DNA of 64,000 nucleotides, from positions 124,001 through 188,000 of IMG/VR virus record IMGVR_UViG_3300032157_000001; one strand, 5' to 3'. Of the stretch, positions 47,173 to 62,457 are shown piece after piece. The notes under the pieces are model-generated. The model made no database searches. It was not told the DNA's origin and saw only the letters and a list, made by a program, of their open reading frames with translations. The position numbers were made by a program, and so were the translations under genes. The DNA comes from a virus. Each line of letters starts with the position of its first letter. Within the stretch, counting starts at the first letter, position 1.

Positions 47173-47564
47173 AAAAAAAAGATGATGATTTCATCGACAA
47201 GAGAATTGAGGAAATGATTTCTGAGGAACAGAACCTTGAGAAAAAGATATTTCTTCAAAATAGTTTAACTAACATGTCGCCAAGCGAAAGAATAACCTTT
47301 ATTCTTAGGAGCATTGATCAAAACAAGAAAGAAAAAGATAGTAGGTCACCATTTCAAAAATTTTATTGGGATTGTAATTCGGTCGAACGAGTTTTTCTTA
47401 CGCTTGGTATGATTGGTAGTTGTATATACCCAATAGTGTTAGTGATGGCAATTAAAAATCCATCATATGAAGGGTTGATTGGTGCTATCTCAATAATGAT
47501 GGTAATCACAATAACGGGATTTTCAATTAGTAAAATTATGAAGAATGAAAGACGCAACAATTGA
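47169..47564 (+). CDS. Small membrane protein with charged N-terminal helix
   Basis: The 131-residue product has a highly charged N-terminal 60 residues and two hydrophobic helices at about residues 77-96 and 100-122. It overlaps the RNA ligase start by 20 bases. No family is recognised. Confidence 0.5.
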   Translation: MKKKDDDFIDKRIEEMISEEQNLEKKIFLQNSLTNMSPSERITFILRSIDQNKKEKDSRSPFQKFYWDCNSVERVFLTLGMIGSCIYPIVLVMAIKNPSYEGLIGAISIMMVITITGFSISKIMKNERRNN

Positions 47565-48540
47565 GGTGATCGGTGCAATACTGCCGCACCCAAATGCAGA
47601 TAGATTAGACCTTGCAATGATATTGGGATACCAATGTGTTGTCCAAAAGGGATTATACAAAGGTGGTGAAACTATAGTGTACATCAGACCCGATTCTTTA
47701 TTGCCGATAGAGAAATGGACTGAAGACTATCGTAAGTATTCTCCCAAAAGAATCAAAGCAGTAAAACTTCGTGATCAATGGAGTGAAGGAATTATTGTGC
47801 CGTTTGAAATCCTTCCGGACAACATAAGAGAGCACCTTCCAAAATTTGAAGTTGGCGACGATGTGTCTGCGTTGATTGGCGTTACTCACTATGAGCCACC
47901 AGCACCTAACGACATTCAAGCAAAGGGTGGTCTTCCTTTTGACATTCCTAAAACGGATGAAGAGCGTTGGGAGAACTATAGTGAAGGTAAATTACCATAT
48001 GGTGAATTGTGTGATTTCTTCTTGAAATTTGATGGACAGAGTGCAAGCTATGGTGTAATTTTGGAGGATATGAGATTTATCATCTTGGGACGCACTCTTG
48101 AACTCCACGAAATCTTCACCAATAACTACACGGCCAATATTGAAAGATATGATTTGAAAAATAAGTTGCTTAAATTTTGTCAGGAGAATGGAGTATCACT
48201 TTGTCTTCGTGGTGAGAGTTATGGTGAAGGTATACAATCCTTTGAATTGAATCCACAAGCAAAGTTGCCAAAAGGATGGGCATTGTTTTCAGTGTACAAC
48301 ATCAAAGAACGAAAATACGAAAGAAAGGGGAGCGACCTGTATTTTGTTAATGTTGCAAAAAAATTGGATTTGCCATTTGTTGATATGGTTGAAGAGAATG
48401 TTATTCTGACAAAAGAGTTGATTGAAAAATACTCCACGGGGATTACTGAGATAAATGGAAAGCCATTTGAGGGTGTTGTCGTACAACATGCGAATGGAAG
48501 CTTCAAGATCATAAACAAGTATTATGACTCTAAAAAATAA
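47545..48540 (+). CDS. RNA ligase with N-terminal OB-like domain (Rnl5/DRB0094-like)
   Basis: The 331-residue product has an N-terminal beta domain (EVIGAILPHPNADRLDLA) and a nucleotidyltransferase domain with motif I K-F-D-G-Q-S near residue 160, a later GESYGEG, motif IV FEGVVVQ and motif V FKIINKYY. This OB-first arrangement matches the Deinococcus RNA ligase type, which seals nicks with a 3'-OH RNA strand. It forms a covalent Lys-AMP. A second, shorter ligase lies 1.2 kb downstream. The operon context with end-modifying enzymes points to RNA repair. Overlaps genes on both sides. Confidence 0.75.
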   Translation: MKDATIEVIGAILPHPNADRLDLAMILGYQCVVQKGLYKGGETIVYIRPDSLLPIEKWTEDYRKYSPKRIKAVKLRDQWSEGIIVPFEILPDNIREHLPKFEVGDDVSALIGVTHYEPPAPNDIQAKGGLPFDIPKTDEERWENYSEGKLPYGELCDFFLKFDGQSASYGVILEDMRFIILGRTLELHEIFTNNYTANIERYDLKNKLLKFCQENGVSLCLRGESYGEGIQSFELNPQAKLPKGWALFSVYNIKERKYERKGSDLYFVNVAKKLDLPFVDMVEENVILTKELIEKYSTGITEINGKPFEGVVVQHANGSFKIINKYYDSKK

Positions 48541-48787
48541 ACAGAGGCCTAAGCGCAAGAGGATTACGAAAGGGTATCTCTTCTGGAAGGAAGAATGGTA
48601 CTCTATCTGTAGTCGACACTACGACAACAATCCGCTGTGTGATCTTTGTAACACCGGTCGTTGGTGTAACGTGTGGTTAGGCGCTGCTGGTCATGTTGTA
48701 TTCAAATGGTTTCCGAAACTATGGATATGGTGGGCAAACTTACCATTCAAGAAAAAGAATTTTTTAAACTTTACCAAACTAAAATGA
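48524..48787 (+). CDS. Unknown Trp/Cys-rich small protein
   Basis: The 87-residue product is basic with several Trp and four Cys (SICSRHYD, LCDLCNTGRWC), possibly zinc-binding. It overlaps the ligase by 17 bases and the YqhA-like gene by 4. No family is recognised. Confidence 0.45.
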   Translation: MTLKNKQRPKRKRITKGYLFWKEEWYSICSRHYDNNPLCDLCNTGRWCNVWLGAAGHVVFKWFPKLWIWWANLPFKKKNFLNFTKLK

Positions 48788-49323
48788 ACCGCTTAAAAAA
48801 AACCGTAGAAAAACTTTTGTTTGATTCGAAAGGAATACTTGTATTCTTTTATTTCGGATTGATCATTGGAATGTGTTGTTATGCGTGGGTGTATGGTAAG
48901 GAGGTATATCATCTTCTTATTGAAGTAAACAACTACAGTAAGGAGACAATGATGTTGGGTTTGCTTGAACTCGTTGATATGGTTATGATCGCATGGCTGG
49001 TCAGATCAATCATAACGGGATCATACAATTCTGCAGTCTCTAAAGATCATGGGTTTACGGGTGAGAACATTTCCAGCGGATTGCTAAAAGTCAAAATGAG
49101 TACGTCTATGATAAGTGTCAGTACGATATTGATGCTTCAGTCTTACATCAATGCTGGTCATGTAACGTGGGACTATCTTTTAAAGCAAGTTATGGTTCAT
49201 ATGGTTTTCTTGGCTACTGGCGTTGTCTTAGCGTATGCAGAATACCTACACGATCTTGGTGATTCAATCAATCCACATGATACTGATGGCGTAAAACCAC
49301 ATCGGAAAACTGACAACCACTAA
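48784..49323 (+). CDS. YqhA/UPF0114-like membrane protein
   Basis: The 179-residue product (ATG 48784, in an ATGA overlap) has four membrane segments and the family blocks FFYFGLIIGM, LLELVDMVMIAWLVRSII, LKVKMSTSMISVS and a C-terminal A-Y-A-E-Y. UPF0114 proteins are integral membrane proteins of unclear function. An open frame upstream to 48673 is not needed. Its presence in a phage operon is unusual. Confidence 0.65.
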   Translation: MNRLKKTVEKLLFDSKGILVFFYFGLIIGMCCYAWVYGKEVYHLLIEVNNYSKETMMLGLLELVDMVMIAWLVRSIITGSYNSAVSKDHGFTGENISSGLLKVKMSTSMISVSTILMLQSYINAGHVTWDYLLKQVMVHMVFLATGVVLAYAEYLHDLGDSINPHDTDGVKPHRKTDNH

Positions 49324-49709
49324 TGGGAGACAAAATTATTATAGTCGATAATGAAAATGAGGCAATGCATAACAGAAGAGAATTGCATATGGCTGATTAT
49401 GTGTTTTATGTGGGTGAAACATACCGTCCCACAACCTCTATTATTGTAAATGTGTTAAAAAGTAGAACACACACATTAGAGGTTCTCCACGTAGTCGTTA
49501 GAAATATTGCTGAAAGATATAAATATCTTTATGAGGTGTCGCTTTTTTGTGAGACTATTTTAACGAATGGATCGTTGAACTTTAAAGCTTATTTTGAAAA
49601 AGAAATTAGTGAAGCGTTGTTTCTTCTTGATTTCAGAAAATGGACGAAGCAGGAGGATGAGTATAAAAGATTGGAGATGGAGCCATTTCAGTATAGGGGA
49701 GGTAGATAA
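49323..49709 (+). CDS. Unknown protein
   Basis: The 128-residue product is alpha/beta, with no enzyme motif visible. It starts on the last base of the previous stop. No family is recognised. Confidence 0.5.
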   Translation: MGDKIIIVDNENEAMHNRRELHMADYVFYVGETYRPTTSIIVNVLKSRTHTLEVLHVVVRNIAERYKYLYEVSLFCETILTNGSLNFKAYFEKEISEALFLLDFRKWTKQEDEYKRLEMEPFQYRGGR

Positions 49710-49712
49710 TAT

Positions 49713-50360
49713 ATGAAACAGTACGACACGATAGATTATTATGGAGACCATTGGGGTTTACCAGTACTTGCTTTTGATAAGCTAGACGGATCGAATATAC
49801 GTGTCGAGTATTCTCATAAGCGCGGATTTTATAAATTCGGAACTCGAAAGATGATGATTGATCAGAACACTCAACCGTTTGGTGTTGCTGTCAATTTGTT
49901 TCTTGAGAAGTACAACGAATCCCTCTCAAGAGTTTTTAAAAGCAAAGAGTATCGAAACATTCTTTCTTTTGTTTGCTTTGCTGAATTCGTCGGAAAGAAG
50001 TCTGCCTTTGGTATGCACGACTTTCAAAACGATACTTTCGACATCGTGTTGTTTGATGTTGACCAATATAAGAAGGGTTTTATACCGCCAAAGCAGTTTG
50101 TCAAAGATTTTGTAGAGTGTGGTATTCCACGGATAGTATATGAGGGTAATTTGAACCGAGAGTTTGTCGGCAGAGTAAAAGATAACGACTTCAATCTTTC
50201 AGAGGGTGTGGTGGCGAAGGGTTTAATAAAGACAAAGAAGGGTGTGCCACAAATATACTCCTGTAAGATAAAAACCAACGATTGGTTCGAGAGACTAAAA
50301 AATAAAAGCCCGGAAATGTTTGATGAAGAAATCAAACAAGTTAACTTAGCCGCTGTATGA
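49713..50360 (+). CDS. RNA ligase-family nucleotidyltransferase
   Basis: The 215-residue product has motif I F-D-K-L-D-G-S-N with catalytic K23, then FAEFVGKKSAFG (motif III-like), LSEGVVAKG (motif IV) and CSCKIKTNDW-like motif V (YSCKIKTN). This is the core of the ligase superfamily without a visible extra domain, as in T4 Rnl2-type enzymes. It follows another ligase and precedes the macro-like gene with a 4-base overlap. Substrate (RNA nicks or tRNA breaks) is inferred. Confidence 0.75.
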   Translation: MKQYDTIDYYGDHWGLPVLAFDKLDGSNIRVEYSHKRGFYKFGTRKMMIDQNTQPFGVAVNLFLEKYNESLSRVFKSKEYRNILSFVCFAEFVGKKSAFGMHDFQNDTFDIVLFDVDQYKKGFIPPKQFVKDFVECGIPRIVYEGNLNREFVGRVKDNDFNLSEGVVAKGLIKTKKGVPQIYSCKIKTNDWFERLKNKSPEMFDEEIKQVNLAAV

Positions 50361-50767
50361 CATTCACTCCCCATGATATAAATGATTTGTTTCCTCTTGC
50401 AGAGAATGAGGTTTTAGTGTTCTCTTCAAATATTGAAGGAAGGCATGGAAAGGGTTTGGCGTTACTTGCTCTACAAAAAGCCGGAGCTAAATATGGACGA
50501 GCGAGAGGTTTGCAAGGACAATCATATGCTATTGTGACGAAGGATTTGAGGCTCGGTGAGCGATCTATTTCATTAGAGGAAATTAAGATCGACGTTTTAA
50601 AATTTTATGAATTTGCCACCGAAAATTCAAACCTCAAATTTTATGTTGGTAAAATTGGATGCAGTCTTGCTGGTTATACTGTTGAAGAGATGGCATCTGT
50701 TTTTCGTTCCATTGAAGTTAGACGACCGAATAATGTAATTTTACCTGTAGAATTTTCCTATCCGTGA
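50357..50767 (+). CDS. Macro-domain-like protein (A1S_2505-type)
   Basis: The 136-residue product has V-L-V-F-S-S-N-I-E-G-R-H-G-K-G near residues 19-33, then a Q-G-x-S-Y-A-I-V-T-K strand. This is a strand-N-G-x-G-K-G layout like ADP-ribose-binding macro domains and the A1S_2505 phage family. Macro domains bind or remove ADP-ribose; DarG-type ones remove it from thymidine in DNA. It overlaps the NADAR gene by 4 bases (GTGA), so the two are made together. Family call is by eye. Confidence 0.65.
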   Translation: MTFTPHDINDLFPLAENEVLVFSSNIEGRHGKGLALLALQKAGAKYGRARGLQGQSYAIVTKDLRLGERSISLEEIKIDVLKFYEFATENSNLKFYVGKIGCSLAGYTVEEMASVFRSIEVRRPNNVILPVEFSYP

Positions 50768-51231
50768 TTGTACACTTCAAATCCATAGAGCATAAATTTT
50801 TATCTAATTTCTACAAGGTAGATGTTGAGTATGATGGTGTTATTTATCCCTCAAGCGAACATGCATACATGAGCGCCAAATCTGACGAAGAAGTTGAAAT
50901 TGATGGAAAAACCTACAAATGGAAGGAATTTTGTCAAAATTCAACAATAAAACCGAGCAAGGTAAAGGGTGAAAGTAGATTTTTAACTTTAGTTGATCAG
51001 TGGGATGAAATTAAGGTTGAAGTTATGTATCTTTGCTTGGTGAGCAAGTTCCGACAGGAACCGCTCAGGAGTAGACTACTGGCGACAGGACTTCAAAATA
51101 TTCAAGAGGGTAATTGGCACGGAGACACCTTTTGGGGTGTTGACTTGCGGGTTAATCCTAATGTTGGTGAGAACAATTTGGGTAGACTATTAATGCGTGT
51201 AAGAGATGAGCTTAGAAGAGGCAATTACTAG
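50764..51231 (+). CDS. NADAR (YbiA-like) domain protein
   Basis: The 155-residue product contains the full NADAR pattern: FLSNFYKVDVEYDG, YPSSEHAYMSAKS, LRSRLLATG and the C-terminal FWGVDLRVNPNVGENNLGRLLM. NADAR proteins act on N-glycosidic bonds; some remove ADP-ribose from guanine in DNA. Start GTG at 50764 overlaps the macro-like stop. The pair could undo two kinds of DNA ADP-ribosylation. The overlap with the next gene (26 bases) keeps it in the operon. Confidence 0.85.
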   Translation: MIVHFKSIEHKFLSNFYKVDVEYDGVIYPSSEHAYMSAKSDEEVEIDGKTYKWKEFCQNSTIKPSKVKGESRFLTLVDQWDEIKVEVMYLCLVSKFRQEPLRSRLLATGLQNIQEGNWHGDTFWGVDLRVNPNVGENNLGRLLMRVRDELRRGNY

Positions 51232-51436
51232 ATCGGAAAAACTTCGTGCTACGTGGGGAATGGACATTCATGTAATGAATGACACTCCTGAAGGTGAAGA
51301 AAATTTTGAGCGTGGTTATTTTTGTGTGCTCGACATAAATCTTTACATTTACACCAGACACAACTACTCAAAAAATCATAAGGTGTATCATAGCACTTCA
51401 CAAATCATTTTTGAACTAAAAAAATTGTTTGCGTGA
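51206..51436 (+). CDS. Small unknown protein
   Basis: The 76-residue product overlaps NADAR by 26 bases and the HAD gene by 4. It has an aromatic C-terminal half (LDINLYIYTRHNY). No family is recognised. Confidence 0.45.
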   Translation: MSLEEAITRSEKLRATWGMDIHVMNDTPEGEENFERGYFCVLDINLYIYTRHNYSKNHKVYHSTSQIIFELKKLFA

Positions 51437-51906
51437 AAATAATCTACGTAGACATCGATGGGCCACTAGCAACTGATGACAGTGCTAAAATTGTGGAAAA
51501 AACAAAGTGGCATCCGAAACTCTATCGTATGGATTCAAAATGTGTGACTGTATTAAATGAGATTATTACAGAAACAGGGTGCGAATTGGTTGTTTCTTCA
51601 GATTGGAGAGTTCATTTTAATCTAACCGAACTTGGTGAAATATTCGAATGGAATGGTGTCATCAAAAAACCGGTTAATGTAACGCCACAGGAATGTATAT
51701 CTTTCAGTGACAAAGCAAGGAACAGAATACATCAAATCAAATTATCAATCAATGAAATTAAACCCGAAAAATGGGTTAGCATTGACGACCTTCCATTAGG
51801 TCAGCAGTACTACAGTACTGGTCTACCATGCTTTGTTGAGTGTGAGCCAATAGCTGGAATTAGTCGTGAGGGAATCAAAGAGTCGATATTAAAGTTTTTG
51901 AATTAA
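51433..51906 (+). CDS. HAD-family phosphatase, RNA-repair type
   Basis: The 157-residue product has HAD motif I D7-I-D9-G-P-L, motif II VVSSDWR (near residue 55) and motif IV SIDDLP (near residue 116). The S-S-D-W-R block is typical of the HAD domain found in Swiss-army-knife RNA repair proteins (PF18143-like), which is thought to remove terminal phosphates. Start is GTG at 51433 overlapping the previous stop. With two ligases close by, RNA end-healing is the likely job. Confidence 0.75.
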   Translation: MKIIYVDIDGPLATDDSAKIVEKTKWHPKLYRMDSKCVTVLNEIITETGCELVVSSDWRVHFNLTELGEIFEWNGVIKKPVNVTPQECISFSDKARNRIHQIKLSINEIKPEKWVSIDDLPLGQQYYSTGLPCFVECEPIAGISREGIKESILKFLN

Positions 51907-51919
51907 ACAAAAGCGATAC

Positions 51920-52927
51920 ATGTACGGAGGAAAAAAAAGACCACAAATTGTAAGTAGTGGCACTGTATCAACACAATCTGACCAATCGGAGGCACCAATA
52001 CCAGTCGATAAGCAGAACAATCTTGTTGACGATACACCAAAATTCATTCAATGGAGTACTCGCGGTAGCAATCTCTATTATCCCGAATTCCAAATCCAGT
52101 TAACTCCGGAGATACCAACAGGGTATTATTCAATAGCATATGATGGAAATGTTGGAAAGTATTTCGTAAGAAAAACTCATTATATCACCGATAACATCTT
52201 GGAGTTACCAATGACAGAAACGGGAGATATTATCAAGGACATTACAACATTTTGGGACAATGAAGATAAATTTCATGAGTATGGTCTCACCTATAAAAGA
52301 GGTGTTCTTATGTATGGCCCTCCGGGATGTGGCAAATCTCACATAATACAACTTATCATTAAGTATCTAATTAATGATCAAAAGGGTGTTGTTTTCAAAA
52401 TAGAAACTGCAGATGATGTTCAGAACTACAGTAACTTCATGCAATCAACGTTCAAAATAATTGAAAACAATAGAAGGATTGTTACCATTATTGAAGATAT
52501 TGATGGTCTCTTCCAGTCCGGTAAGGCGACTGAGACTCTTCTTTTAAATATACTTGATGGGATGGGACATATGGATAATATCGTCTATGTGGCAACGACA
52601 AACCATCCAGAAGAACTTGAAGATCGCGTCATCAATAGACCCTCAAGATTTGATAGAAGATACAAAATTGACTTGCCGAATGACGCTGTTCGAAGATTTT
52701 ATTTTGAGAACACACTAAAAGAAAAAGATTTGAAAACTATTGATCTTGATCTTTGGGTTAAAGAAAGTGACAAACTATCAATTGCGCATTTGCGGGAAAT
52801 TATTGTATCCACAATCATTTTGGGAAATCCATTTGAAAAGACTATGGCCATGATGAAGGATTTAAACGAACATAAGCCAACATCAAAAACTTTTGGTGGT
52901 AAAGGACGTATTGGATTTGGCAGCTAA
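51920..52927 (+). CDS. AAA+ ATPase
   Basis: The 335-residue product has Walker A G-P-P-G-C-G-K-S near residue 132, Walker B VTIIEDIDG near residue 190, a sensor-1 Asn in VYVATTNHPEEL and a second-region-of-homology Arg pair in RPSRFDRRYKI. The N-terminal 100 residues are unknown and probably bind a partner. Closest in style to BCS1/FtsH-like AAA proteins. Possible unfoldase, helicase loader or nucleic-acid remodeler. The next small gene begins 12 nt later. Confidence 0.8.
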   Translation: MYGGKKRPQIVSSGTVSTQSDQSEAPIPVDKQNNLVDDTPKFIQWSTRGSNLYYPEFQIQLTPEIPTGYYSIAYDGNVGKYFVRKTHYITDNILELPMTETGDIIKDITTFWDNEDKFHEYGLTYKRGVLMYGPPGCGKSHIIQLIIKYLINDQKGVVFKIETADDVQNYSNFMQSTFKIIENNRRIVTIIEDIDGLFQSGKATETLLLNILDGMGHMDNIVYVATTNHPEELEDRVINRPSRFDRRYKIDLPNDAVRRFYFENTLKEKDLKTIDLDLWVKESDKLSIAHLREIIVSTIILGNPFEKTMAMMKDLNEHKPTSKTFGGKGRIGFGS

Positions 52928-52939
52928 ACTGAGATCAAA

Positions 52940-53269
52940 ATGAGCATAGCGGACGGAGACGGGAATGTATACACAATTCAAAAGCCCGAAGAACTTTTAA
53001 AGACCATTGATAAGGACAGTATGTTGTCTGTATTACAGACCACATATGTTGCAAAATGCACCAATGAAAATATTTCTGCTATGATCAAAATGGGGCTGAT
53101 CGAAAGAGTTAATGGTGATGCAAATGAAGATGTGTTTGCAACCTCATTGGGTGAGGGTGTTGAATTTCTTAAAGCTCATTTGATTGAAGTTTTTAATATT
53201 GAAACAGTTGAGGCTGCAATTAAGGAGGCTCACGAGAATATATACGGTAGCAATGAGAGCGAAAAATAA
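52940..53269 (+). CDS. Unknown protein
   Basis: The 109-residue product is mostly helical and acidic. No family is recognised. It overlaps the next gene by 17 bases and follows the AAA+ gene, so it may be its partner. Confidence 0.45.
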   Translation: MSIADGDGNVYTIQKPEELLKTIDKDSMLSVLQTTYVAKCTNENISAMIKMGLIERVNGDANEDVFATSLGEGVEFLKAHLIEVFNIETVEAAIKEAHENIYGSNESEK

Positions 53270-53570: not shown

Positions 53571-53571
53571 T

Positions 53572-54063
53572 ATGCAACGCGAAATCGAAAGAAAATTTTT
53601 GGTATCTCCTGAGAATTTTTCTCTAACCAAAGATGGAATGTTAATTGCTGAACTTAACATCACACAAGGTTACCTATCAAAAGTTGCTGGTCGAATTGTT
53701 AGAGTTCGACATACAGTATCAGCTACAGCATCGGTTGGTAAGAAAACCTCATCAGCTAAAATGACTTTTAAATTGAAGGATGGTGCTGATAGTGGTGTTG
53801 GTATTGATGAGTATGAATATGAAATTCCGGAGAATGATGGAATTAACATACTCAAGCATTGCGAAGCTCCATTAATCGAAAAAACCAGATACCTCATTCT
53901 AAAAGAAAATTCGCTGTGGGAGGTTGATGTTTTTCATGGGCATAAAGAGGGACTTATTGTCGCAGAGATTGAGTTGAAAGATATTAATGATCCTATTGAT
54001 ATGCCAACGTGGATCGGCGAAGAAGTCACAGGAGTCAAAGAGTACAGTAACGCAAACATGTAA
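53572..54063 (+). CDS. CYTH / triphosphate tunnel metalloenzyme
   Basis: The 163-residue product opens with the defining E-I-E-R-K-F-L motif (residues 4-10) and has the alternating basic/acidic strands of the tunnel (RIVRVRHT, KMTFKLKDG, DEYEYEIP, LIEKTRYLI, EVDVFHG, VAEIELK). CYTH enzymes hydrolyse triphosphates (thiamine triphosphate, polyphosphate or RNA 5' ends) or make cAMP. Given RNA ligases and a HAD phosphatase nearby, an RNA 5'-triphosphatase role is possible. It overlaps the next gene by one base. Confidence 0.85.
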   Translation: MQREIERKFLVSPENFSLTKDGMLIAELNITQGYLSKVAGRIVRVRHTVSATASVGKKTSSAKMTFKLKDGADSGVGIDEYEYEIPENDGINILKHCEAPLIEKTRYLILKENSLWEVDVFHGHKEGLIVAEIELKDINDPIDMPTWIGEEVTGVKEYSNANM

Positions 54064-54302: not shown

Positions 54303-54527
54303 ATGATTCTAGGTTTTATTGGGGACATCAATAACGATACCCACAGAGTTCTTCTAACTCGTCTTGCCAATCAAAAAATCAACTTCAGAAGTACCAAATC
54401 AACACAAAGTCCAAGCCAGTACACGATTCTCTTTGAGACAGAATCGGACTACAAGAATGCACAGAAGGTTGCTAAAGTCATGGCAGCAACCTTTATCGAA
54501 AAGATACCCTTATTTGACACAATATGA
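54303..54527 (+). CDS. Small unknown protein
   Basis: The 74-residue product is alpha/beta. It starts 15 nt after the previous stop and overlaps the next gene by 4 bases. No family is recognised. Confidence 0.45.
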   Translation: MILGFIGDINNDTHRVLLTRLANQKINFRSTKSTQSPSQYTILFETESDYKNAQKVAKVMAATFIEKIPLFDTI

Positions 54528-55486
54528 GCACCAAAATTTACAATGGATATAAATTCAAGAAAGCAACGTCCTTGAATGAAATCCATAGCTTTTGCCACAA
54601 ACTTCGTGACAAGGTAAAACCAATTGCCGAAAAGCTTTATTATCAACAATTCATAAATGAAGCAGTTGGACTCTACGACAAGAACCAATATGGATTCTAT
54701 GAAGAATCCATGTACTTTGTGAACAAAGAAGGAAATAAAGAATTGTTTTGGGGAATTGATCGTTATATGCACATCAGGATGAACCACATTAAGGCAACAA
54801 ACCAAAGAGACCCTGAAGTGGATTTTGGATTCAGCATATCAATTCTTCCACTCAAGAAGCGTAAAGATGTGTTAGTTCTTTTGTACACAGAAAAAAGAGA
54901 ACTTGCTAATGTCTTTAAGAAACTACCAGAAGTCGAGGATTATCATTACCAAAATCAATCAGACAAACCCAACAACATTTCAGAAAAGAAATGGGATCAA
55001 AGAAGATCAGATTGGGATGATGCGTTGGGTGGTGACGGACATAGTACGCCTATGGAATGTGGATTCACCTATCAACCATATTCAGAGAATAGGTTGTCAT
55101 TATTCTGGATGGAAGACAAAGAAAAGAAAAAATTGAACAAACTTTTCCCATCATTAGATGAACGAGCTAAAGTTATCGCCAGAAACCTCATGAGTAAAGT
55201 ATATGAGGAAAAAAATCCTCTACCATCATTGCCGGAGGATGCAACCAAAGAGCAAAAGGAAGAGCGTTATAGTGAGTTAAATAAACAGTACTGGATGTAC
55301 ATTGATTACATGAAGTCTGATGAAGGTAAAAGGGAAACTGCTATACAGCATGAAATCGTAAAACCAACTCTTCGTCCATTCAATGAAATCGGCGATCTTC
55401 GTATACAAATTGAGTTTCATGAGAAGATAAAATCGGTACTTGAAAAGCCGGAGGGCGGAAAACCGTACTGGCTGAGAGAAAGATAA
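54524..55486 (+). CDS. Unknown 320-residue protein
   Basis: The protein is alpha/beta with no visible catalytic motif; a Gly-Gly-Asp-Gly-His (GGDGHS) turn near residue 168 and several His residues are the only striking spots. Last gene before a strong terminator. Confidence 0.5.
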   Translation: MSTKIYNGYKFKKATSLNEIHSFCHKLRDKVKPIAEKLYYQQFINEAVGLYDKNQYGFYEESMYFVNKEGNKELFWGIDRYMHIRMNHIKATNQRDPEVDFGFSISILPLKKRKDVLVLLYTEKRELANVFKKLPEVEDYHYQNQSDKPNNISEKKWDQRRSDWDDALGGDGHSTPMECGFTYQPYSENRLSLFWMEDKEKKKLNKLFPSLDERAKVIARNLMSKVYEEKNPLPSLPEDATKEQKEERYSELNKQYWMYIDYMKSDEGKRETAIQHEIVKPTLRPFNEIGDLRIQIEFHEKIKSVLEKPEGGKPYWLRER

Positions 55487-55506
55487 TAGGATAAACAACA
55501 GACTGG

Positions 55507-55540
55507 AAACCCTGATTTTAGCACAAAATCAGGGTTTTTT
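55507..55540 (+). terminator. Strong rho-independent terminator
   Basis: A 13-bp stem (AAACCCTGATTTT with AAAATCAGGGTTT) closes on AGCAC and is followed by T. It ends the first half of the accessory operon. Confidence 0.9.
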
Positions 55541-55617: not shown

Positions 55618-55917
55618 ATGATAACAAAGCTAAAGGAAAAAATTAAGGAGGCATTTGCAAAACACAAAAAAAATGTGGGATGGTTGTTACTTGGTGCTGC
55701 GTTTATTCTTATCGTTTCTTTTGTGAGTAACAAAACCAACGACGAATTGATGGGGACAAATAAGGAGTTAAGAACTGAAATGCTTCGAGATAAAATGAGA
55801 ATCGAATTGATGTACTACATCATCGGCATACAGGCAGACTCTTTATCGATGTACAAAACAAGATTGATTAATTGTCAAGAAACACAAATAACCAATGAAG
55901 GTAGTAGAACGAAATAG
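55618..55917 (+). CDS. Small membrane-anchored coiled-coil protein
   Basis: The 99-residue product has a Lys-rich N-terminus, one membrane helix (about residues 20-37) and a coiled-coil tail. This is the topology of inner-membrane spanins or envelope tethers. It overlaps the next gene by 23 bases. Role is not determined. Confidence 0.45.
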   Translation: MITKLKEKIKEAFAKHKKNVGWLLLGAAFILIVSFVSNKTNDELMGTNKELRTEMLRDKMRIELMYYIIGIQADSLSMYKTRLINCQETQITNEGSRTK

Positions 55918-56083
55918 AATAGCAAAAAAAATCGTTGACGACATCGTGAAGGATTTACTTGAAAAAACTGAACTTGGATTAGTAGCAGATAATTGGGATG
56001 ATGGAGACGACGATGATAAAAAGGAAGCAATCGAAAGATGGATGAATATAGTGAAACGACATATTGTCGTTGATAATAAATAA
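55895..56083 (+). CDS. Small acidic protein
   Basis: The 62-residue product has an acidic patch (DNWDDGDDDDKKE). It could be a DNA mimic or a partner protein. No family is recognised. Confidence 0.4.
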   Translation: MKVVERNRIAKKIVDDIVKDLLEKTELGLVADNWDDGDDDDKKEAIERWMNIVKRHIVVDNK

Positions 56084-56087
56084 TTTT

Positions 56088-56630
56088 ATGATAAACATTG
56101 AAATACTGTTAAGTCCAGAAACAGAACTGGAAAAAAAGATCGTTAGAGATCAAGAATTTATTCGTGGTGCCCTTTTCGGCAAACCACGCCCCGGACACCC
56201 CGAAGGTGAAGTAGCACACCACATTGCTGAGGTGCTTTTAAACATTGAAAAGTATGCCACACCCGATGATCGTGCAGAACTAAGACTAGTGGCGCTAATT
56301 CACGATACATTCAAGCATAAGGTTGACAACACAAAACCGAAATTTGGTGCAAATCATCATGCAATGATTGCACGTAGGTTTGCTGAAAAATACAAACTAA
56401 ATGACGACATTCTTGATGTTATCGAATTACACGATGAAGCATATAATGCTTGGTCTGTTGGATTTAGGAAAAATAATTGGAGAGAGGCTGAGAAAAGAAT
56501 CGAAAGATTGTTGTTGCGTCTTACTGACCAAAACTATTCTCTCTACAAAAAATTCTATAGATGTGACAACGAAACCGGCGATAAGACACAAGAAAACTAC
56601 AAATGGTTTTGCAATTACGTTGGTGAGTAA
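56088..56630 (+). CDS. HD-domain phosphohydrolase-like protein
   Basis: The 180-residue product has EVAHHIAEVL (first His), LVALIHDTFKH (the H-D pair) and a later H-x-x-x-x-A-R-R helix with ELHDEAYN. This fits an HD-type phosphohydrolase acting on nucleotides or cyclic signals. The ATG at 56088 is preferred over an in-frame upstream start within the small gene. It overlaps the next gene by 8 bases. Confidence 0.6.
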   Translation: MINIEILLSPETELEKKIVRDQEFIRGALFGKPRPGHPEGEVAHHIAEVLLNIEKYATPDDRAELRLVALIHDTFKHKVDNTKPKFGANHHAMIARRFAEKYKLNDDILDVIELHDEAYNAWSVGFRKNNWREAEKRIERLLLRLTDQNYSLYKKFYRCDNETGDKTQENYKWFCNYVGE

Positions 56631-57012
56631 GAAGAAACATAGAAATGGGGTCGTATACAAATTTATAGAATTAGACCCCAACATAACGTTTGTTGAGGCA
56701 AGCGATATGTTGTGGGAAACAATAGGTTATTGGGATGTGTTAGTCAAACGATTCTCTCTAAAGGGAGAGGATGATAACAGGGCAATTCAGAAATGTCAAT
56801 TTTATGCCAAAAATTTAATCAAAAAACATCCCAAACTTGAACACACTCACCTTAAAAATTATTACGACGAAGCTGTGTGTGAATTTGCTGGCTTGAAATA
56901 TGTCGTTCGAAGAGATGGATTAGCTCAAGAAAAAGCAGGATTTTCTCCCGTTATATTTGAGGGAAAAAGACTATATTTATTCCCGACTAACAATGAAGAA
57001 GATACCCCTTAA
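56623..57012 (+). CDS. Unknown protein
   Basis: A GTG at 56623 overlapping the HD gene stop gives 129 residues; the frame is open further upstream but that part is inside the HD gene. The product is alpha/beta with no recognised family. Confidence 0.45.
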   Translation: MSKKKHRNGVVYKFIELDPNITFVEASDMLWETIGYWDVLVKRFSLKGEDDNRAIQKCQFYAKNLIKKHPKLEHTHLKNYYDEAVCEFAGLKYVVRRDGLAQEKAGFSPVIFEGKRLYLFPTNNEEDTP

Positions 57013-57310
57013 AATGAGAACATCTGGCTCCACTCCCGTAATGAAGTGGATCAATTTGGTAAATAAGTGGAATAGTTGTGTTGATTTTCCCGACAGTCCA
57101 TACTCACGACAAAGGATGATTTTTGTTAAAGCTGAGGCTGCAGATTTATTGATACAATATCCAGCATTGAAAATAGCAATTCAGATGCATGATGAACTTG
57201 ACACACATCAAATTGAAGCATTACGTTATGGTGATTATAAATTTGAATTTGATTTGCCAAACAATTGTCCTAAAGCATGTGTGATTGGTGGATTTACTTT
57301 ACTAGATTAA
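56993..57310 (+). CDS. Unknown protein
   Basis: The ATG at 56993 overlaps the previous stop; an ATG at 57014 is an alternative. The 105-residue product is alpha/beta. No family is recognised. Confidence 0.45.
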   Translation: MKKIPLKMRTSGSTPVMKWINLVNKWNSCVDFPDSPYSRQRMIFVKAEAADLLIQYPALKIAIQMHDELDTHQIEALRYGDYKFEFDLPNNCPKACVIGGFTLLD

Positions 57311-57316
57311 ATATTG

Positions 57317-57844
57317 ATGAAGACTTACAACATATTTGGTGTTACAAAAAATGAGTATGTTATTTTTAAAGAGGATACGAGATATATCTCTTTTAATGAT
57401 GTTTCAGAAATGTGTGACACGTTTTGTATACACATTAGGAAGATCACAAAACCAGTACGTGGTATGGTAAAAGTTTATTTTGACATACCCACCCGTTCTG
57501 ATGGTGACAAGAAAACCTATATCATTATATACGATGATACAATTTATAAGTTTCCACCAAATCTGTTTTTTGGTGCTTATCCGATTAGTTCACTAGACGA
57601 AATCCTGATTGACATAAAATCTTTTAAAATGTTCAAAAAAATGGTGAAGGTAGTAGATGAACTTTTTATTGCGCGAAAAGCTAAAGATGAAATGGAGACT
57701 AGATACTATAGGACAAAAGATAATATGACTTCCTTGAGCACCAAGATGGATCGTATAGCCAATGAAATGATTATTGAACAGAGAGACAAAAAATTATATA
57801 ACAAAGAAATCCTAGAGTATGCCGCACAAAAAGAAAAAAACTAA
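57317..57844 (+). CDS. Unknown protein with C-terminal coiled coil
   Basis: The ATG at 57317 is preferred over a TTG at 57314. The 175-residue product is alpha/beta and ends in a Lys/Glu coiled coil. It overlaps the next gene by 26 bases. No family is recognised. Confidence 0.45.
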   Translation: MKTYNIFGVTKNEYVIFKEDTRYISFNDVSEMCDTFCIHIRKITKPVRGMVKVYFDIPTRSDGDKKTYIIIYDDTIYKFPPNLFFGAYPISSLDEILIDIKSFKMFKKMVKVVDELFIARKAKDEMETRYYRTKDNMTSLSTKMDRIANEMIIEQRDKKLYNKEILEYAAQKEKN

Positions 57845-58142
57845 AACACCAACCCTTGACACGGGATTTCCTTCAAAGAAGGCCGCAGAGGCGCTTGGAT
57901 ATATTGCTGGAACCATCGAGCGTTTGTCCGATGGCGCTGTTCTGACCCTTAATTCAGACCATGAGACCTACTCCTTCTCCAAAGAGTTTACCAAGGGTGG
58001 ATTGAGTCCCAAATACACCTACGAGCGTCTAATGGAGGATTCTAGGGCAAAGGGTGCCTTCGTGGTACGTGGGTGGATCAAAAACTTCAACGCAGAAAAT
58101 TTTGTCAAATTCCTCAATAAGGAGGAAAAAAATCCCGAATAA
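57819..58142 (+). CDS. Unknown protein, GC-richer than neighbours
   Basis: The 107-residue product starts PHKKKKTKTP and has an alpha/beta body. Its codons end in C or G far more often than in the genes around it, a sign of a different origin or of selection. No family is recognised. Confidence 0.5.
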   Translation: MPHKKKKTKTPTLDTGFPSKKAAEALGYIAGTIERLSDGAVLTLNSDHETYSFSKEFTKGGLSPKYTYERLMEDSRAKGAFVVRGWIKNFNAENFVKFLNKEEKNPE

Positions 58143-58148
58143 ATCTTT

Positions 58149-58156
58149 AAATTTGG
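58149..58156 (+). promoter_or_regulatory. Host-type -7 box TAAATTTG
   Basis: TAAATTTG sits 9 nt before the ATG at 58166. No clear -33 element. Confidence 0.3.
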
Positions 58157-58165
58157 TTCTGATTT

Positions 58166-58348
58166 ATGAGCAAAGACAAGGCTATATGTTGCGATTGTGG
58201 TGGGAAGCTAACCACATATGAACTAAACGATAACATATATGCTGGCATCAACGATCAAAATTATCTTTGTTATGCTTGTCAACCAACACAGAGTTTTGTT
58301 GTGGATGACAATCCATATGAGGATGATGAAGATGATGACGATTTTTAA
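58166..58348 (+). CDS. Small zinc-ribbon-like protein
   Basis: The 60-residue product has C-C-D-C-G near residue 9 and C-Y-A-C near residue 38, a four-Cys zinc ribbon, and a strongly acidic end (DDNPYEDDEDDDDF). The acidic tail may mimic nucleic acid. No family is recognised. Confidence 0.55.
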   Translation: MSKDKAICCDCGGKLTTYELNDNIYAGINDQNYLCYACQPTQSFVVDDNPYEDDEDDDDF

Positions 58349-58359
58349 ACTATAAAAGA

Positions 58360-58800
58360 ATGAAAGGATACGTACTTGGATTCATGTTTTCTGAAGATCA
58401 CAAACATGTTGTTCTTATTAGAAAGAACAAACCTGTGTGGCAAGCTGGAAGTATGAATGGTGTTGGTGGAAAGATTGAAGAGGGGGAGGAACCGCTCGAT
58501 GCAATGATCAGAGAATTTACAGAAGAGACCGGATGTTATCATGAAAATTGGAGACACTTTGCTTCGATGACAAATAGCCAATTCATTGTGTATTGTTATG
58601 TGGCATTTGCTTCTGGTGTTCAAATTGAAAGCAAGACTGATGAAATTGTTTTTAAGGTTAAGGTTGATGAAATTTTAACTAATGAATATAAAACCATCGC
58701 CAATTTGAAATGGCTTATCTGTATGGCTCTCGACAAAGGTTTTGAGCCGGTAGTCATAAATTACGAAGAAGCAGACAAGTATAAAGAACCAGTAAAGTAA
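58360..58800 (+). CDS. Nudix hydrolase
   Basis: The 146-residue product contains a complete Nudix box from G37 to G58 (GGKIEEGEEP then REFTEETG), with the R-E-x-x-E-E metal site. Nudix enzymes split nucleoside diphosphates linked to another group, such as ADP-ribose, dNTPs, NAD or RNA caps. In this operon it may process ADP-ribose or 5' ends. It overlaps the next gene by one base. Confidence 0.9.
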   Translation: MKGYVLGFMFSEDHKHVVLIRKNKPVWQAGSMNGVGGKIEEGEEPLDAMIREFTEETGCYHENWRHFASMTNSQFIVYCYVAFASGVQIESKTDEIVFKVKVDEILTNEYKTIANLKWLICMALDKGFEPVVINYEEADKYKEPVK

Positions 58801-59348
58801 TGGAAATAATAAAACCAACGTTAGAGACGGGTCATCGTGTTAGACTGAATAACACCAACGGCATTAATGTGTTTCTTGCTGGATCAATTGAGATGGGTGT
58901 TGCTGAGAATTGGCAAGATCGAATGAGCAACCACTTCAAAGACTACAACATCACATTCTTGAACCCTAGAAGAGACGAATGGGACAATACGTGGATTCAA
59001 AGTATTGATAACAAAGTTTTTCGTGATCAGGTTGAATGGGAATTGAACGGTTTATCCGAAGCTGACTATGTGGTAATGTATTTTGATCCTAAAACAAAAT
59101 CACCAATTAGTTTGTTGGAGCTTGGATTGATGGCATATACTGGTAGAATCGTTGTTTGTTGTCCGGATGATTTTTACAGAAGAGCAAATGTTGAGATCGT
59201 TTGTAACAGATTTGATATTCCAATGTATAATAATTGGGATGAGTTTGTGATGGTGCTTGATCATAGATTCAAGAAGGTGCTTCGTAACAAGGAGTATGCA
59301 AAAGGCATGGATGAGAAATGGGATAACGCAATAAAAGGTAAAGTCTAA
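58800..59348 (+). CDS. Nucleoside 2-deoxyribosyltransferase-like protein
   Basis: The 182-residue product has VFLAGSIEMG (the strand-G-S loop), RDEW, a D-x-x-x-E-W-E-L helix with DQVEWELNGLSEADYVVMYF and SLLELGLMAY. These fit the nucleoside deoxyribosyltransferase fold, which breaks and re-forms N-glycosidic bonds or binds NAD-like ligands. It overlaps genes on both sides by one base, so it is tied to Nudix and the 2H-like gene. Confidence 0.75.
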   Translation: MEIIKPTLETGHRVRLNNTNGINVFLAGSIEMGVAENWQDRMSNHFKDYNITFLNPRRDEWDNTWIQSIDNKVFRDQVEWELNGLSEADYVVMYFDPKTKSPISLLELGLMAYTGRIVVCCPDDFYRRANVEIVCNRFDIPMYNNWDEFVMVLDHRFKKVLRNKEYAKGMDEKWDNAIKGKV

Positions 59349-59737
59349 TGAAAATTTTATATCACGCCCTGTTTGTAGATAATGTTAATGAATTGATGGG
59401 TATGTTCCCACCTGTTCATCCTAATATTTTTTATCATCACTCCACCATTGAATTTGCGCCGAAAGATGCGTCAAATATTGAAGTGGGCAAAAAGATGCGT
59501 CTACAAATTGTTGGTAGAATTACAACAGACAGAGTTGATGCACTGATCGTGGCTAATTTAAAATCGAAAAATCGTCACCCACACATCACACTTTCGACAG
59601 CACTTGGTGTTAAGCCTTTTGAGAGCAACACTGAGCTAGAGAAGCACCCCGCATTGATAAAAGTGATTTCGACACCACAGTATATCGATACCACAGAAGG
59701 ATACATGGATGGGACAAACACAAAAAGAGTTAGCTAA
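59348..59737 (+). CDS. 2H phosphoesterase-like protein
   Basis: The 129-residue product has two His motifs about 60-65 residues apart, YHHSTIEF and HPHITLS, consistent with the H-x-T/S pair of 2H phosphoesterases. Such enzymes open 2',3'- or ADP-ribose 1'',2''-cyclic phosphates, or degrade cyclic oligonucleotide signals. It is short for the family, so it might be a minimal version. Overlaps both neighbours by one base. Confidence 0.6.
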   Translation: MKILYHALFVDNVNELMGMFPPVHPNIFYHHSTIEFAPKDASNIEVGKKMRLQIVGRITTDRVDALIVANLKSKNRHPHITLSTALGVKPFESNTELEKHPALIKVISTPQYIDTTEGYMDGTNTKRVS

Positions 59738-60003
59738 TGAATCCGTTTGATTACTACATAATACTCTTTTCGATAATTGCGTCGATAATCGGATTGATTG
59801 TCGCAGTTGAATTAAGAAGAGAGGTTAAATATAAAAAGAATCATAGATGCGTCTACTGTGGATTCAGACATGGAAATAGATTCACCATGTCTTATGGATT
59901 TCCCGGTACGCTTCGAATATACAAATGTCGTAGATGGTGGTGTACGCTGCTCAAAAGATTAGGTTATCTTGAGCCAAAGAATCACAACAAAGAAGAACTA
60001 TAA
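59737..60003 (+). CDS. Membrane-anchored Cys-rich small protein
   Basis: The 88-residue product has one membrane helix (residues 6-26) and a zinc-like part with C-V-Y-C and C-x-x-x-x-C. No family is recognised. Confidence 0.45.
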   Translation: MNPFDYYIILFSIIASIIGLIVAVELRREVKYKKNHRCVYCGFRHGNRFTMSYGFPGTLRIYKCRRWWCTLLKRLGYLEPKNHNKEEL

Positions 60004-60021
60004 AATGAGGAAAGGGTAAGT

Positions 60022-60255
60022 ATGTACGTTTTATTTTATCACCCAACAGATTCAATTTCAAAACTTGGAACCACTTCTTTAGATGATATAAAGAAGTATG
60101 GTAACTATCGTTTTTTTGGAAAGGTAATTGAGGATCGTGGTTATGAATACCTCGTTCGTTGCAAATATCGTTATCCAGATATGGATCATACGGGTAGAAT
60201 GAAATTGAGCGTACCGAAGGGATGGAATGTTATCAAGGTCTTTAATTACGATTAG
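60022..60255 (+). CDS. Small unknown protein
   Basis: The 77-residue product is beta-rich and aromatic (YVLFYHPTDS; YEYLVRCKYRYPDMD). It starts with ATG after a GGGTAAGT leader. No family is recognised. Confidence 0.4.
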   Translation: MYVLFYHPTDSISKLGTTSLDDIKKYGNYRFFGKVIEDRGYEYLVRCKYRYPDMDHTGRMKLSVPKGWNVIKVFNYD

Positions 60256-60256
60256 C

Positions 60257-60514
60257 GTGAAGGTAGATTACTTTGGCGATGATTTGGGTTTGTGTATGTA
60301 CACGTTCAGAAACTGTACTTACAAAGATGTAATAAACTACATCCTCAATATCAAATCGCTTATTGAAAATTATAAAATAACTGGTGTTATCGTTTCACGA
60401 AAGTACTGGTTGTTTGGAGCACTTACTGTGAAGGTTATTCTTGAAACAGAAGAAGCAATCAAAAGATATGGTGGCTCAGGAGAAGAAGCTGTATATAAAA
60501 TGTGGATGTCATGA
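60257..60514 (+). CDS. Small unknown protein
   Basis: GTG at 60257 gives 85 residues, two bases after the previous stop; the open frame upstream overlaps that gene. It is alpha/beta. No family is recognised. Confidence 0.4.
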   Translation: MKVDYFGDDLGLCMYTFRNCTYKDVINYILNIKSLIENYKITGVIVSRKYWLFGALTVKVILETEEAIKRYGGSGEEAVYKMWMS

Positions 60515-60873
60515 AAAAGAAATCATCGAAACGAATCCCAATCTCTGCAGCATCTGAGATTGGAAAGAAGTACGACAAGGATCAAGTCATTTTAGTGACT
60601 TGGAATAAGGAGCATGGTGACATTTGGGTAACTACGTGGGGAAAGACTCTCACCGATTGCTCACAAGCTGCTGAGGGTGGGAATTTTGTTAAGAAAGCTC
60701 TTGGGTGGCCAAATGAATTAACTGAAGCAAAGCCAGCACGTGAGAAGAAGTTGCGTAAGAAAATCATTGGTGAGATTTTGGATAAAATTCTCAAACTAGA
60801 TAAAGACAATTATGTTGGACTTGACACCGTTGCGGTTCGCGACATAAGAGAGTTGCTAACCGAAAAAGAATAA
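60511..60873 (+). CDS. Unknown basic protein
   Basis: The ATG at 60511 (ATGA overlap) gives 120 residues; it has a basic start (MKKKSSKRIP), then VILVTWNKEHGDIWVTTWG and a helical, basic end. No family is recognised. Confidence 0.45.
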   Translation: MKKKSSKRIPISAASEIGKKYDKDQVILVTWNKEHGDIWVTTWGKTLTDCSQAAEGGNFVKKALGWPNELTEAKPAREKKLRKKIIGEILDKILKLDKDNYVGLDTVAVRDIRELLTEKE

Positions 60874-60874
60874 G

Positions 60875-61261
60875 ATGGAAGATAAGAATGATAAAGACTT
60901 TTTTGATAAGTTAGATAAACTTTTTGGTAGATCATCCGAAAAAGTGGGGGAGAATAATGGGCTGCAAAAAAGTGACATCGTTACTTTAGATGGAACAGGC
61001 TCTATCGTTGGTAGTGGAGTGGGTGAAATCATCTCTGGTACAAGATCATTATATGATGCATTCTATGGAATGGTGGATGATGTAAAAAGTAAAGAAACAT
61101 TAACATATAACGAAAGGATGAATACCTTAAAATTCTCTATGGAAGACATCGAAAACTTATTCGCTGTACTTAGTTTAGGGTTGGGTGATTCTACAGATCG
61201 GAAAGCTCTTGATACTATGTTTACCAATTGGAAAAATGACCAACTCGCTAAAATCAAATGA
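60875..61261 (+). CDS. Unknown protein
   Basis: The 128-residue product is mixed, with a long Gly/Ser stretch (TGSIVGSGVGEIISG). It follows the previous stop by one base. No family is recognised. Confidence 0.45.
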   Translation: MEDKNDKDFFDKLDKLFGRSSEKVGENNGLQKSDIVTLDGTGSIVGSGVGEIISGTRSLYDAFYGMVDDVKSKETLTYNERMNTLKFSMEDIENLFAVLSLGLGDSTDRKALDTMFTNWKNDQLAKIK

Positions 61262-61529
61262 GACAACAAAACGTAATTGTACTGCATGTACATTTCTGCG
61301 TAATGGCGTTAAAACAAGAAAATCAATACCACACACATGTGGATTAAGTAATAAAGAAATTATGAAAATAATCAAAAAAGGAATAAACCCCGCACATAAA
61401 CCGACTAGAAAGACATGTGGTAAATGTGGGTGTGTGTTTGAATACACCAGAGCAGACATGCAGTCGGATCGTGATGGTGCTTATGTTGTTTGTCCCACCG
61501 AAGGGTGCCGTTCATTTATCTCAGTATAA
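61236..61529 (+). CDS. Zinc-finger-like small protein
   Basis: The ATG at 61236 is used; the frame is open upstream within the previous gene. The 97-residue product has C-T-A-C, C-G-K-C-G-C and C-P-x-x-G-C, enough Cys for one or two zinc sites. It might bind nucleic acid. It overlaps the next gene by one base. Confidence 0.5.
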   Translation: MTNSLKSNETTKRNCTACTFLRNGVKTRKSIPHTCGLSNKEIMKIIKKGINPAHKPTRKTCGKCGCVFEYTRADMQSDRDGAYVVCPTEGCRSFISV

Positions 61530-61810
61530 TGAAAAAAAGAAAACCAATATTCGACATTGAAAATTACGGAAATATGACGGGTTTTACATCATTTATAGGT
61601 GGGCCACTTTACAACGCCGAGTATGATCCAGACCGGGACTATAATAAGAAGGTGTACAGCAAAAAAAATATGGACGATGTCTTCGAAATGCTGACGCTTC
61701 TTGTTAAGAATAAGGCATTAAGGAAAACACTTAATGAGTCCTATCAAAACTGGAAGGACAGTGAATGGGAAAGAGAAAAAGAAAATGATGATTATGATGA
61801 TTTGCCTTAG
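61529..61810 (+). CDS. Unknown small protein
   Basis: The ATG at 61529 overlaps the previous stop. The 93-residue product ends in a very acidic tail (REKENDDYDDLP). No family is recognised. Confidence 0.45.
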   Translation: MKKRKPIFDIENYGNMTGFTSFIGGPLYNAEYDPDRDYNKKVYSKKNMDDVFEMLTLLVKNKALRKTLNESYQNWKDSEWEREKENDDYDDLP

Positions 61811-61812
61811 TT

Positions 61813-62457
61813 ATGAATTTACAATATCTAGCATCGAAAGTTTTGGGTGACATAAAGGTAAGCGACTTGGTTGCTGTATATCCATACGGGTCAAGAGTTT
61901 ATGGAACCGCTACGAAGAACTCGGACTATGATTATATTGTCATTCTTAAAAAGAAAAAATCACAACAATACTCAGATAATCTGATCAACATAAATTTCTA
62001 CACACCAGAAGAACATCAAAAAAGATTAGACGATCATGAAATATCTGCCCTAGAGTGTTACTTCTTGCCACGAGAAATGGTACTCTTTACCGCCAATCAT
62101 CCACTGAACAAAGAGAACGTCGAGTTTAAATTCAAACTTGACTTAGGCAAACTCAGACACTCTCTATCGGCTAAGTCATCAAACAGTTGGGTTAAAGCAA
62201 AAAAGAAACTTACTGTTGAAAAGGATTATGATGTCAACATCGGAAAGAAGAGTTTATTTCATGCCATGCGAATAATCACCTTCGGCATCCAGATCGCAAT
62301 GACTGGTCGTATCGTTGATTATGGTGCTTGCAATCACATCAATCATAGCATCTCTCTTCAGTCAGATATGTGGCCAGAATTGTTTGAGACGTATAAAAAA
62401 TATTACAACAGACTACTATCTGATTTCCGGGTAGTTGCTCCGAAAGAAATTGCATGA
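61813..62457 (+). CDS. RlaP-like DNA polymerase beta-type nucleotidyltransferase
   Basis: The 214-residue product has G26-S27-R and D38-Y-D40 in YPYGSRVYGTATKNSDYDY, the catalytic pattern of the DNA polymerase beta superfamily, and a C-terminal helical part (LFHAMRIITFGIQ). It best matches the PF10127/RlaP type, a family linked to RNA repair. It could add nucleotides to RNA 3' ends. It closes the set of RNA-repair-like genes and overlaps the next gene by 4 bases. Confidence 0.75.
   Translation: MNLQYLASKVLGDIKVSDLVAVYPYGSRVYGTATKNSDYDYIVILKKKKSQQYSDNLININFYTPEEHQKRLDDHEISALECYFLPREMVLFTANHPLNKENVEFKFKLDLGKLRHSLSAKSSNSWVKAKKKLTVEKDYDVNIGKKSLFHAMRIITFGIQIAMTGRIVDYGACNHINHSISLQSDMWPELFETYKKYYNRLLSDFRVVAPKEIA

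Follow-up and report, generated by a model that had tools for sequence, protein, structure and literature searches.

A probable counter-defence block of RNA end-repair, ADP-ribose-removal and nucleotide-sanitising genes in a jumbo phage

In the virus record IMGVR_UViG_3300032157_000001, which comprises 371,504 bases and reads as a jumbo tailed phage, a run of genes for RNA repair and nucleotide-related enzymes occupies about 15 kb of a 64,000-nucleotide stretch (bases 124001-188000 of the record, hereafter the window). The block extends from position 47545 to 62457 of the window (171545-186457 of the genome) and all features described within it lie on the plus strand; positions are those of the window unless the genome is named. 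When the block was compared with named phages by megablast there was no match, and no close named relative was found. About 48 tRNA genes were counted in the genome, none of them within the window. Block proteins were assigned to families by scoring them against Pfam models with their curated (gathering) cut-offs, and were compared with two related phage contigs, a 60.5 kb fragment (L023) and a 366 kb sister phage (L035/L036). A preliminary description of this DNA had named two RNA ligases, an RNA-repair-type HAD phosphatase and CYTH, HD, Nudix and deoxyribosyltransferase-like proteins, all of which score above the curated cut-offs; it had also named a 2H-like phosphoesterase and an RlaP-like polymerase, for which the case is more nuanced.

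The block opens with a predicted Rnl5-type (DraRnl/NgrRnl-like) ATP-dependent RNA ligase (47545..48540; PF21189, E 8.7e-14; PF09414, E 2.3e-9), in which an N-terminal OB domain (PHA02142 OB-fold) is followed by the adenylyltransferase domain with a KFDG motif. Its top match in the PDB is the Naegleria RNA ligase NgrRnl (5cot, E 4.8e-25). The protein also matches TIGR02306 (E 6.7e-32) with 110.7 bits, under the equivalog cut-off of 151.15, and is by sequence a relative rather than an equivalog. A scan of species genomes, whose reach covers close relatives only, found no relative of this ligase. The second ligase (49713..50360; PF09414, E 3.1e-8, over the cut-off) is a short Rnl2-like protein of 215 aa that consists of the adenylyltransferase domain alone and keeps the KLDG and EGVVAK motifs. 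Its relatives are found in Xanthomonas phage XacN1, in Lak phages and in other huge phages. The L023 counterparts of the two ligases are 76% (Rnl5-type) and 82% (Rnl2-like) identical.

Downstream of the ligases, a HAD_SAK_2 phosphatase of the RNA-repair HAD type (51433..51906; PF18143, E 5.9e-18, 66 bits against a cut-off of 27.5) carries the DxDG, SSDW (S/T) and DD motifs, is 52-55% identical in both relatives and is predicted to act as an end phosphatase. A probable 2H phosphoesterase (59348..59737) shows two H-x-[ST] motifs, HHST and PHIT, both of which are conserved in the sister phage at 63% identity. The match to PF08302 (tRNA_lig_CPD, E 2.1e-4) reaches 21.3 bits and narrowly misses the cut-off of 23, and PDB sequence searches gave no useful match; we keep the assignment as provisional.

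The last gene of the block (61813..62457) encodes a compact pol-beta nucleotidyltransferase (NTase; PF01909, E 5.5e-8) with the signature GSRVYG...SDYD and a family-invariant SNSWVKAKKK motif. Its score against RlaP (PF10127), 13.3 bits, does not reach the cut-off of 23, and only 3 of 22 relatives match that model at E<=0.01 (best, 9e-4). Three other comparisons argue for relatedness. A profile comparison with hhalign gave a probability of 87.6% between the NTase family and true RlaP; phrog_388 is common to true RlaP and all 22 relatives; and 9 of 21 contigs have the NTase gene no more than 4 kb from a gene for RlaP or an RNA ligase, against 1.76 expected from random placement. None of 20,000 randomisations reached that count, a P value which is to be taken as indicative because some of the 21 contigs may be interrelated. 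Judged by its sequence, the protein belongs to a distinct compact family for which "RlaP-related" is a fair name and "RlaP" is not.

Between the second ligase and the phosphatase lies a pair of genes that the preliminary description did not mention, overlapping by 4 bp. The first encodes an A1S_2505 family protein (50357..50767; NF049995, E 1.2e-34) that Pfam leaves unnamed: a whole-genome profile search with the Pfam Macro model (PF01661) gave no match at E<=0.01. Its AlphaFold2 (AF2) model has a pLDDT of 96; Foldseek placed macrodomains on top (human TARG1, yeast Poa1p and DarG, E 1.4e-4), and VIA gave a Z of 12.5 to TARG1 over 127 residues and of 12.1 to Mycobacterium tuberculosis DarG. By the fold of this model, the protein is a divergent macrodomain of the TARG1/DarG type and a predicted ADP-ribosylhydrolase. 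Lys62 is conserved in 42 of 47 relatives, and a profile of these relatives aligns it, at a sub-threshold E of 0.13, to the lysine of the TARG1 YYLITKK stretch. Catalysis remains a prediction, as the Asp of TARG1's IGCGLD is replaced by Ala. Members of the family are widespread among phages (289 phage records matched). On a stretch of phage G its profile weakly picks gp122, an annotated Appr-1-p (macro) protein. The macrodomain assignment is not wholly new, since one relative, from Agrobacterium phage Milano, already bears the name of a macro domain protein. The second gene of the pair encodes a NADAR protein (50764..51231; PF08719, E 1.6e-21, 77.7 bits against a cut-off of 35.1), which matches YbiA (2b3w, E 4.4e-10) and a NADAR structure (8bau, E 6.1e-6) in the PDB and is a predicted guanine-ADP-ribose hydrolase. 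Both members of the pair are thus predicted ADP-ribose-removing enzymes. Their adjacency recurs in three of the seven A1S_2505 contigs that have a NADAR gene (G036, G061 and G069, of which the last two look related). XacN1 ORF214, which adjoins the NADAR gene of that phage, had been suspected of being a macrodomain as well, but it is not an A1S_2505 protein.

The other enzymes of the block include an AAA+ ATPase (51920..52927; PF00004, E 7e-16) that is 68-73% identical in both relatives, a CYTH (triphosphate tunnel) enzyme (53572..54063; PF01928, E 6.2e-10; PDB 3typ/2fbl, E 2e-10) and an HD-domain phosphohydrolase (56064..56630; PF01966, E 3.7e-6, over the cut-off) that is 64% identical in L023. 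Further along are a Nudix hydrolase with an intact Nudix box (58360..58800; PF00293, E 3e-12) and a nucleoside 2-deoxyribosyltransferase-like protein of the Nuc_deoxyri_tr2 family (58800..59348; PF15891, E 6.7e-36, 123 bits), respectively 58% and 56% identical in the sister phage. A UPF0114 membrane protein (48673..49323; PF03350, E 1.7e-11) is encoded between the two ligases. A phage protein of 320 aa, referred to as the MSTKIYN family (54524..55486), is kept with the block in both L023 and L035. Its AF2 model has a pLDDT of 92, yet no fold in the PDB matched below E 0.6; weak, scattered matches to Rep/HUH proteins (E 0.1-9, with inconsistent alignments) were rejected as noise. Relatives of this protein occur in other large phage contigs, in one case near CYTH and Rnl1-like genes (L072/L073).

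The block had been described as one long operon, which it probably is not. A terminator-like hairpin with a 15-bp stem and a subsequent T-run (55505..55539) follows the gene that ends at 55486 and divides the gene run; a different hairpin with its own T-run is found at the matching position in L023. Beyond it there are gaps of 131, 146 and 217 bp. The hairpin and the gaps together make at least two transcription units likely, as far as can be predicted from sequence. The claim that the block covers 5' end healing is not confirmed either: no 5' kinase was detected in the block among kinase-family matches (no separate search for kinases of another family was made), and the AAA_33 kinase matches of the genome, at 14980 and 334996 only, are both outside the window. 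The block is therefore not self-sufficient as a cassette for 5'/3' healing and sealing.

The actual RNA-repair core of this phage lies outside the window. On the minus strand, bases 10646-17759 of the genome encode a complete RNA repair cassette of bacterial type, composed of true RlaP (10646-11905, E 4.6e-14), a 935-aa Pnkp, an HD_4 protein and Hen1. The Pnkp combines an AAA_33 kinase, a Metallophos (calcineurin-type) phosphoesterase and a PNKP_ligase domain (E 6.8e-32), all over their cut-offs, and Hen1 matches at E 5.6e-59 (Hen1_N over the cut-off); among named phages Hen1 is rare, with five records matched. Near the RlaP and Pnkp genes of the cassette, a sub-threshold match to S-AdoMet lyase (27.4 against 28 bits) was noted on the same strand (L003:11907-12299, genome). 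A T4-type Pnkp (genome 334948-335874, plus strand; HAD_PNKP, E 1.9e-40; phrog_505, E 2.2e-78) is encoded near a tRNA cluster. A T4-type Rnl1 (genome 191310-192359, minus strand; RNA_lig_T4_1, E 5.8e-16; phrog_562, E 1e-70) is found beside a small tRNA cluster just beyond the right end of the window. With the two ligases of the window, Rnl1 and the ligase domain of Pnkp, the ATP-grasp RNA ligases and ligase domains of the phage thus amount to four types. Neither KptA nor RtcB was detected in the genome at E<=0.01.

RNA cut by metal-independent RNases ends in a 2',3'-cyclic phosphate and a 5'-OH. Phosphoesterases of the 2H and Pnkp types open cyclic phosphates, HAD phosphatases clear phosphates and kinases restore 5' phosphates, while lost nucleotides are put back by RlaP-type enzymes, the break is sealed by ATP-grasp ligases and the repaired site is methylated by Hen1. 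Against this background, we consider it probable, with moderate confidence, that the phage uses the block as an accessory region for counter-defence which contributes partial RNA end-repair, ADP-ribose removal and nucleotide sanitising. In such a scheme, for which families, folds, conserved gene order and context statistics are observed and substrates, order of steps, time of expression and purpose are inferred, host RNases activated by infection would cut tRNAs and other RNAs and produce 2',3'-cyclic phosphate and 5'-OH ends. The cyclic phosphate could be opened by the 2H protein of the block and the Pnkp phosphoesterase encoded elsewhere. Terminal phosphates could be cleared by HAD_SAK_2 together with the distant T4-type Pnkp, and 5' ends would be re-phosphorylated by the two kinases encoded elsewhere. 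Lost nucleotides would be restored by the remote RlaP and its compact relative in the block, and different kinds of breaks sealed by the Rnl5-type and Rnl2-like ligases on the one hand and by Rnl1 and the Pnkp ligase domain on the other. Hen1, also encoded elsewhere, would then add a 2'-O-methyl group to the repaired end. At the same time, the macrodomain and NADAR proteins may strip ADP-ribose from nucleic acids or from ADP-ribose metabolites, and the Nudix hydrolase may degrade the product they release. A counter-defence toolbox whose parts are located in three or more regions of the genome is the parsimonious and most likely reading. The counter-defence role suggested in the preliminary description is supported in one of its two parts: RNA repair and clean-up is the best reading of a set that is indeed broader than that of T4, whereas cyclic oligonucleotides as a target find no specific support, the clean-up enzymes (macrodomain, NADAR and Nudix) pointing to ADP-ribose instead.

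The proteins of the block mostly belong to the families first proposed for them, and their neighbourhood is conserved. In L023 the order of the genes for the Rnl5-type ligase, the Rnl2-like ligase, macrodomain, NADAR, HAD, AAA+, CYTH, 320-aa and HD proteins is kept at 32-82% identity. In the sister phage the order macrodomain, HAD, AAA+, CYTH, 320-aa protein, Nudix, deoxyribosyltransferase-like protein, 2H and NTase is kept, but the locus has neither of the ligases and no NADAR or HD gene. Whether the genes move together had been put forward as a check; gene order is kept in two independent phage contigs, in the sister phage without these four genes. With order kept in both, the clustering of the block genes is not due to chance; the neighbourhood is real, with the ligases as its variable part. 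In the place taken by the two ligases in the present phage, immediately upstream of the conserved block, the sister phage carries a second HAD_SAK_2 gene (L035:7687-8307). Hen1 was looked for in the sister phage and not found.

Several of these observations weigh against the counter-defence reading. Since the sister phage lacks the ligases, NADAR and HD at this locus, the repair part does not constitute an obligate unit; the gene run is divided by the terminator-like hairpin; the 2H call is sub-threshold; and the CYTH, HD, AAA+, deoxyribosyltransferase-like and 320-aa proteins have not been tied to RNA repair by any demonstration. The genes missing from the sister locus, the hairpin and the gaps would fit an ordinary accessory block of a jumbo phage, in which small enzymes have been gathered singly in a tolerant region with no joint pathway, repair being left mainly to the Hen1-Pnkp-RlaP and T4-type genes elsewhere. 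The sister phage indeed keeps its own RlaP (59 kb), NADAR (220 kb) and RNA ligases (111 kb, 233 kb) at other places, and most loci found with single block genes have only that gene in common with the block. Such piecemeal acquisition is harder to reconcile with the gene order maintained in both relatives, down to 32% identity in L023, and with the association of the NTase with repair genes above chance, and we regard it as a possible but doubtful account.

Equally tentative is the proposal that the main job of the block is to neutralise an ADP-ribose-based defence, either DarT-type ADP-ribosylation of DNA or RNA or NAD-derived signals, through the macrodomain, NADAR, Nudix and deoxyribosyltransferase-like proteins, with the ligases being incidental. 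The overlap of the macrodomain and NADAR genes and their adjacency in three other contigs speak for it. NADARs, that of T4 included, undo the ADP-ribosylation of guanine in both DNA and RNA (PMC11833690), and DarTG is an anti-phage system in which macrodomain or NADAR antitoxins reverse the action of the DarT toxin (PMC11481870). However, the pair is separated in the sister phage, most genes of the block have no ADP-ribose link, and the Asp missing from the macrodomain family leaves its catalysis only predicted.

Nucleotide-pool housekeeping for phage DNA synthesis is unlikely to be the purpose of the block: the CYTH, Nudix, HD and deoxyribosyltransferase-like families are present, along with a nearby MazG-like match (44657) that is below its cut-off, and PMC7824862 suggests that unmodified NTPs may be broken down by CYTH and MazG enzymes, but this purpose would not account for two RNA ligases, HAD_SAK_2, 2H, NADAR or the RlaP relative. 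Still less probable is a coupled module in the left half of the block (47.5-55.5 kb) in which the macrodomain and NADAR would strip ADP-ribose from RNA bases or ends before the Rnl5-type and Rnl2-like ligases and the HAD phosphatase reseal the same molecules, as an answer to RNA-directed ADP-ribosyltransferase toxins.

As for the host, there are weak hints only at the Bacteroidota, which come from sequence similarities of the replicative helicase, nearest to those of Flavobacterium phages, and of the Pnkp ligase domain, nearest to the Rnl of the Pnkp1-Rnl-Hen1 complex. The Bacteroidota-type promoter pattern occurs 7 times against 3.7 expected, a marginal enrichment reached by 8 of 100 shuffles, and so does not fix the host. 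A protein that by eye resembles an ECF-type sigma factor (17756-18325) could drive phage-specific promoters. Elsewhere in the window, two large proteins of the structural-gene region (4353-7979 and 7981-9390) contain threonine runs of about 20-25 residues, and a 1098-aa protein (41357-44653, minus strand), found in the sister phage too, apparently fuses an SbcD-like metallophosphoesterase to an SbcC-like part.

Arsenals that combine RNA repair with NAD and ADP-ribose metabolism are already known in jumbo phages from work published between 2018 and 2022. Rnl1, Rnl2, HAD_SAK, 2H, RlaP, CYTH, Nudix and NADAR proteins were reported with the same proposed purpose by Iyer et al. (2021, PMC7824862), and the co-occurrence of macrodomain, NADAR and Nudix proteins in DNA viruses was discussed together with jumbo-phage RNA repair by Iyer et al. 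(2022, PMC9503650). The present genome shares with these arsenals the ATP-grasp ligases, HAD Swiss-army-knife phosphatase, 2H, RlaP, CYTH, Nudix, NADAR, macrodomain and tRNAs. It differs in its four ligase types and bacterial Hen1, in having no detected KptA or RtcB and in a macrodomain of the A1S_2505 family, which the Pfam Macro model misses. In XacN1, for which Pnkp and Hen1 have been reported (PMC5852040), NADAR (DUF1768), the compact NTase and Pnkp-Hen1 lie within 11 kb, and many tRNA genes and an Rnl2-like ligase are likewise present; in contrast, the gene order is different, NAD-salvage genes are found and the XacN1 stretches examined gave no A1S_2505 match. With these precedents the toolkit is not of a new kind, only unusually broad and complete.

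Similar comparisons can be made with better characterised systems. Like bacterial Pnkp/Hen1 and Pnkp1-Rnl-Hen1 (PMC4411300), the genome encodes, at 10.6-17.8 kb, kinase, phosphoesterase and ligase domains plus Hen1, and the ligase part is closest in the PDB to the Rnl of the latter complex (4xru, E 9e-55); unlike them, it has the three domains in one 935-aa protein, outside the window. As in T4, a T4-type Pnkp and Rnl1 are present, but both lie outside the window, whose ligases are Rnl5- and Rnl2-like. Reversal of DarT by a DarG macrodomain or by NADAR (PMC11543638, PMC11481870) has its parallel in one predicted protein per enzyme type, encoded by overlapping genes; no DarT toxin was identified in the block, for which no dedicated search for ADP-ribosyltransferases was run.

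If the predicted functions hold, a single genome would unite two types of ADP-ribose-removing enzyme with RNA repair by a Hen1-Pnkp-RlaP system of bacterial type, by Pnkp and Rnl1 of T4 type, by two more ligases and by a compact relative of RlaP. It would then offer a test case for the specialisation of phage ligase families on different host RNases and for the coupling of RNA repair with the reversal of ADP-ribosylation. Moreover, the structural link between the A1S_2505 family and macrodomains, as suggested by the model, may provide many "hypothetical" phage proteins with a testable function.

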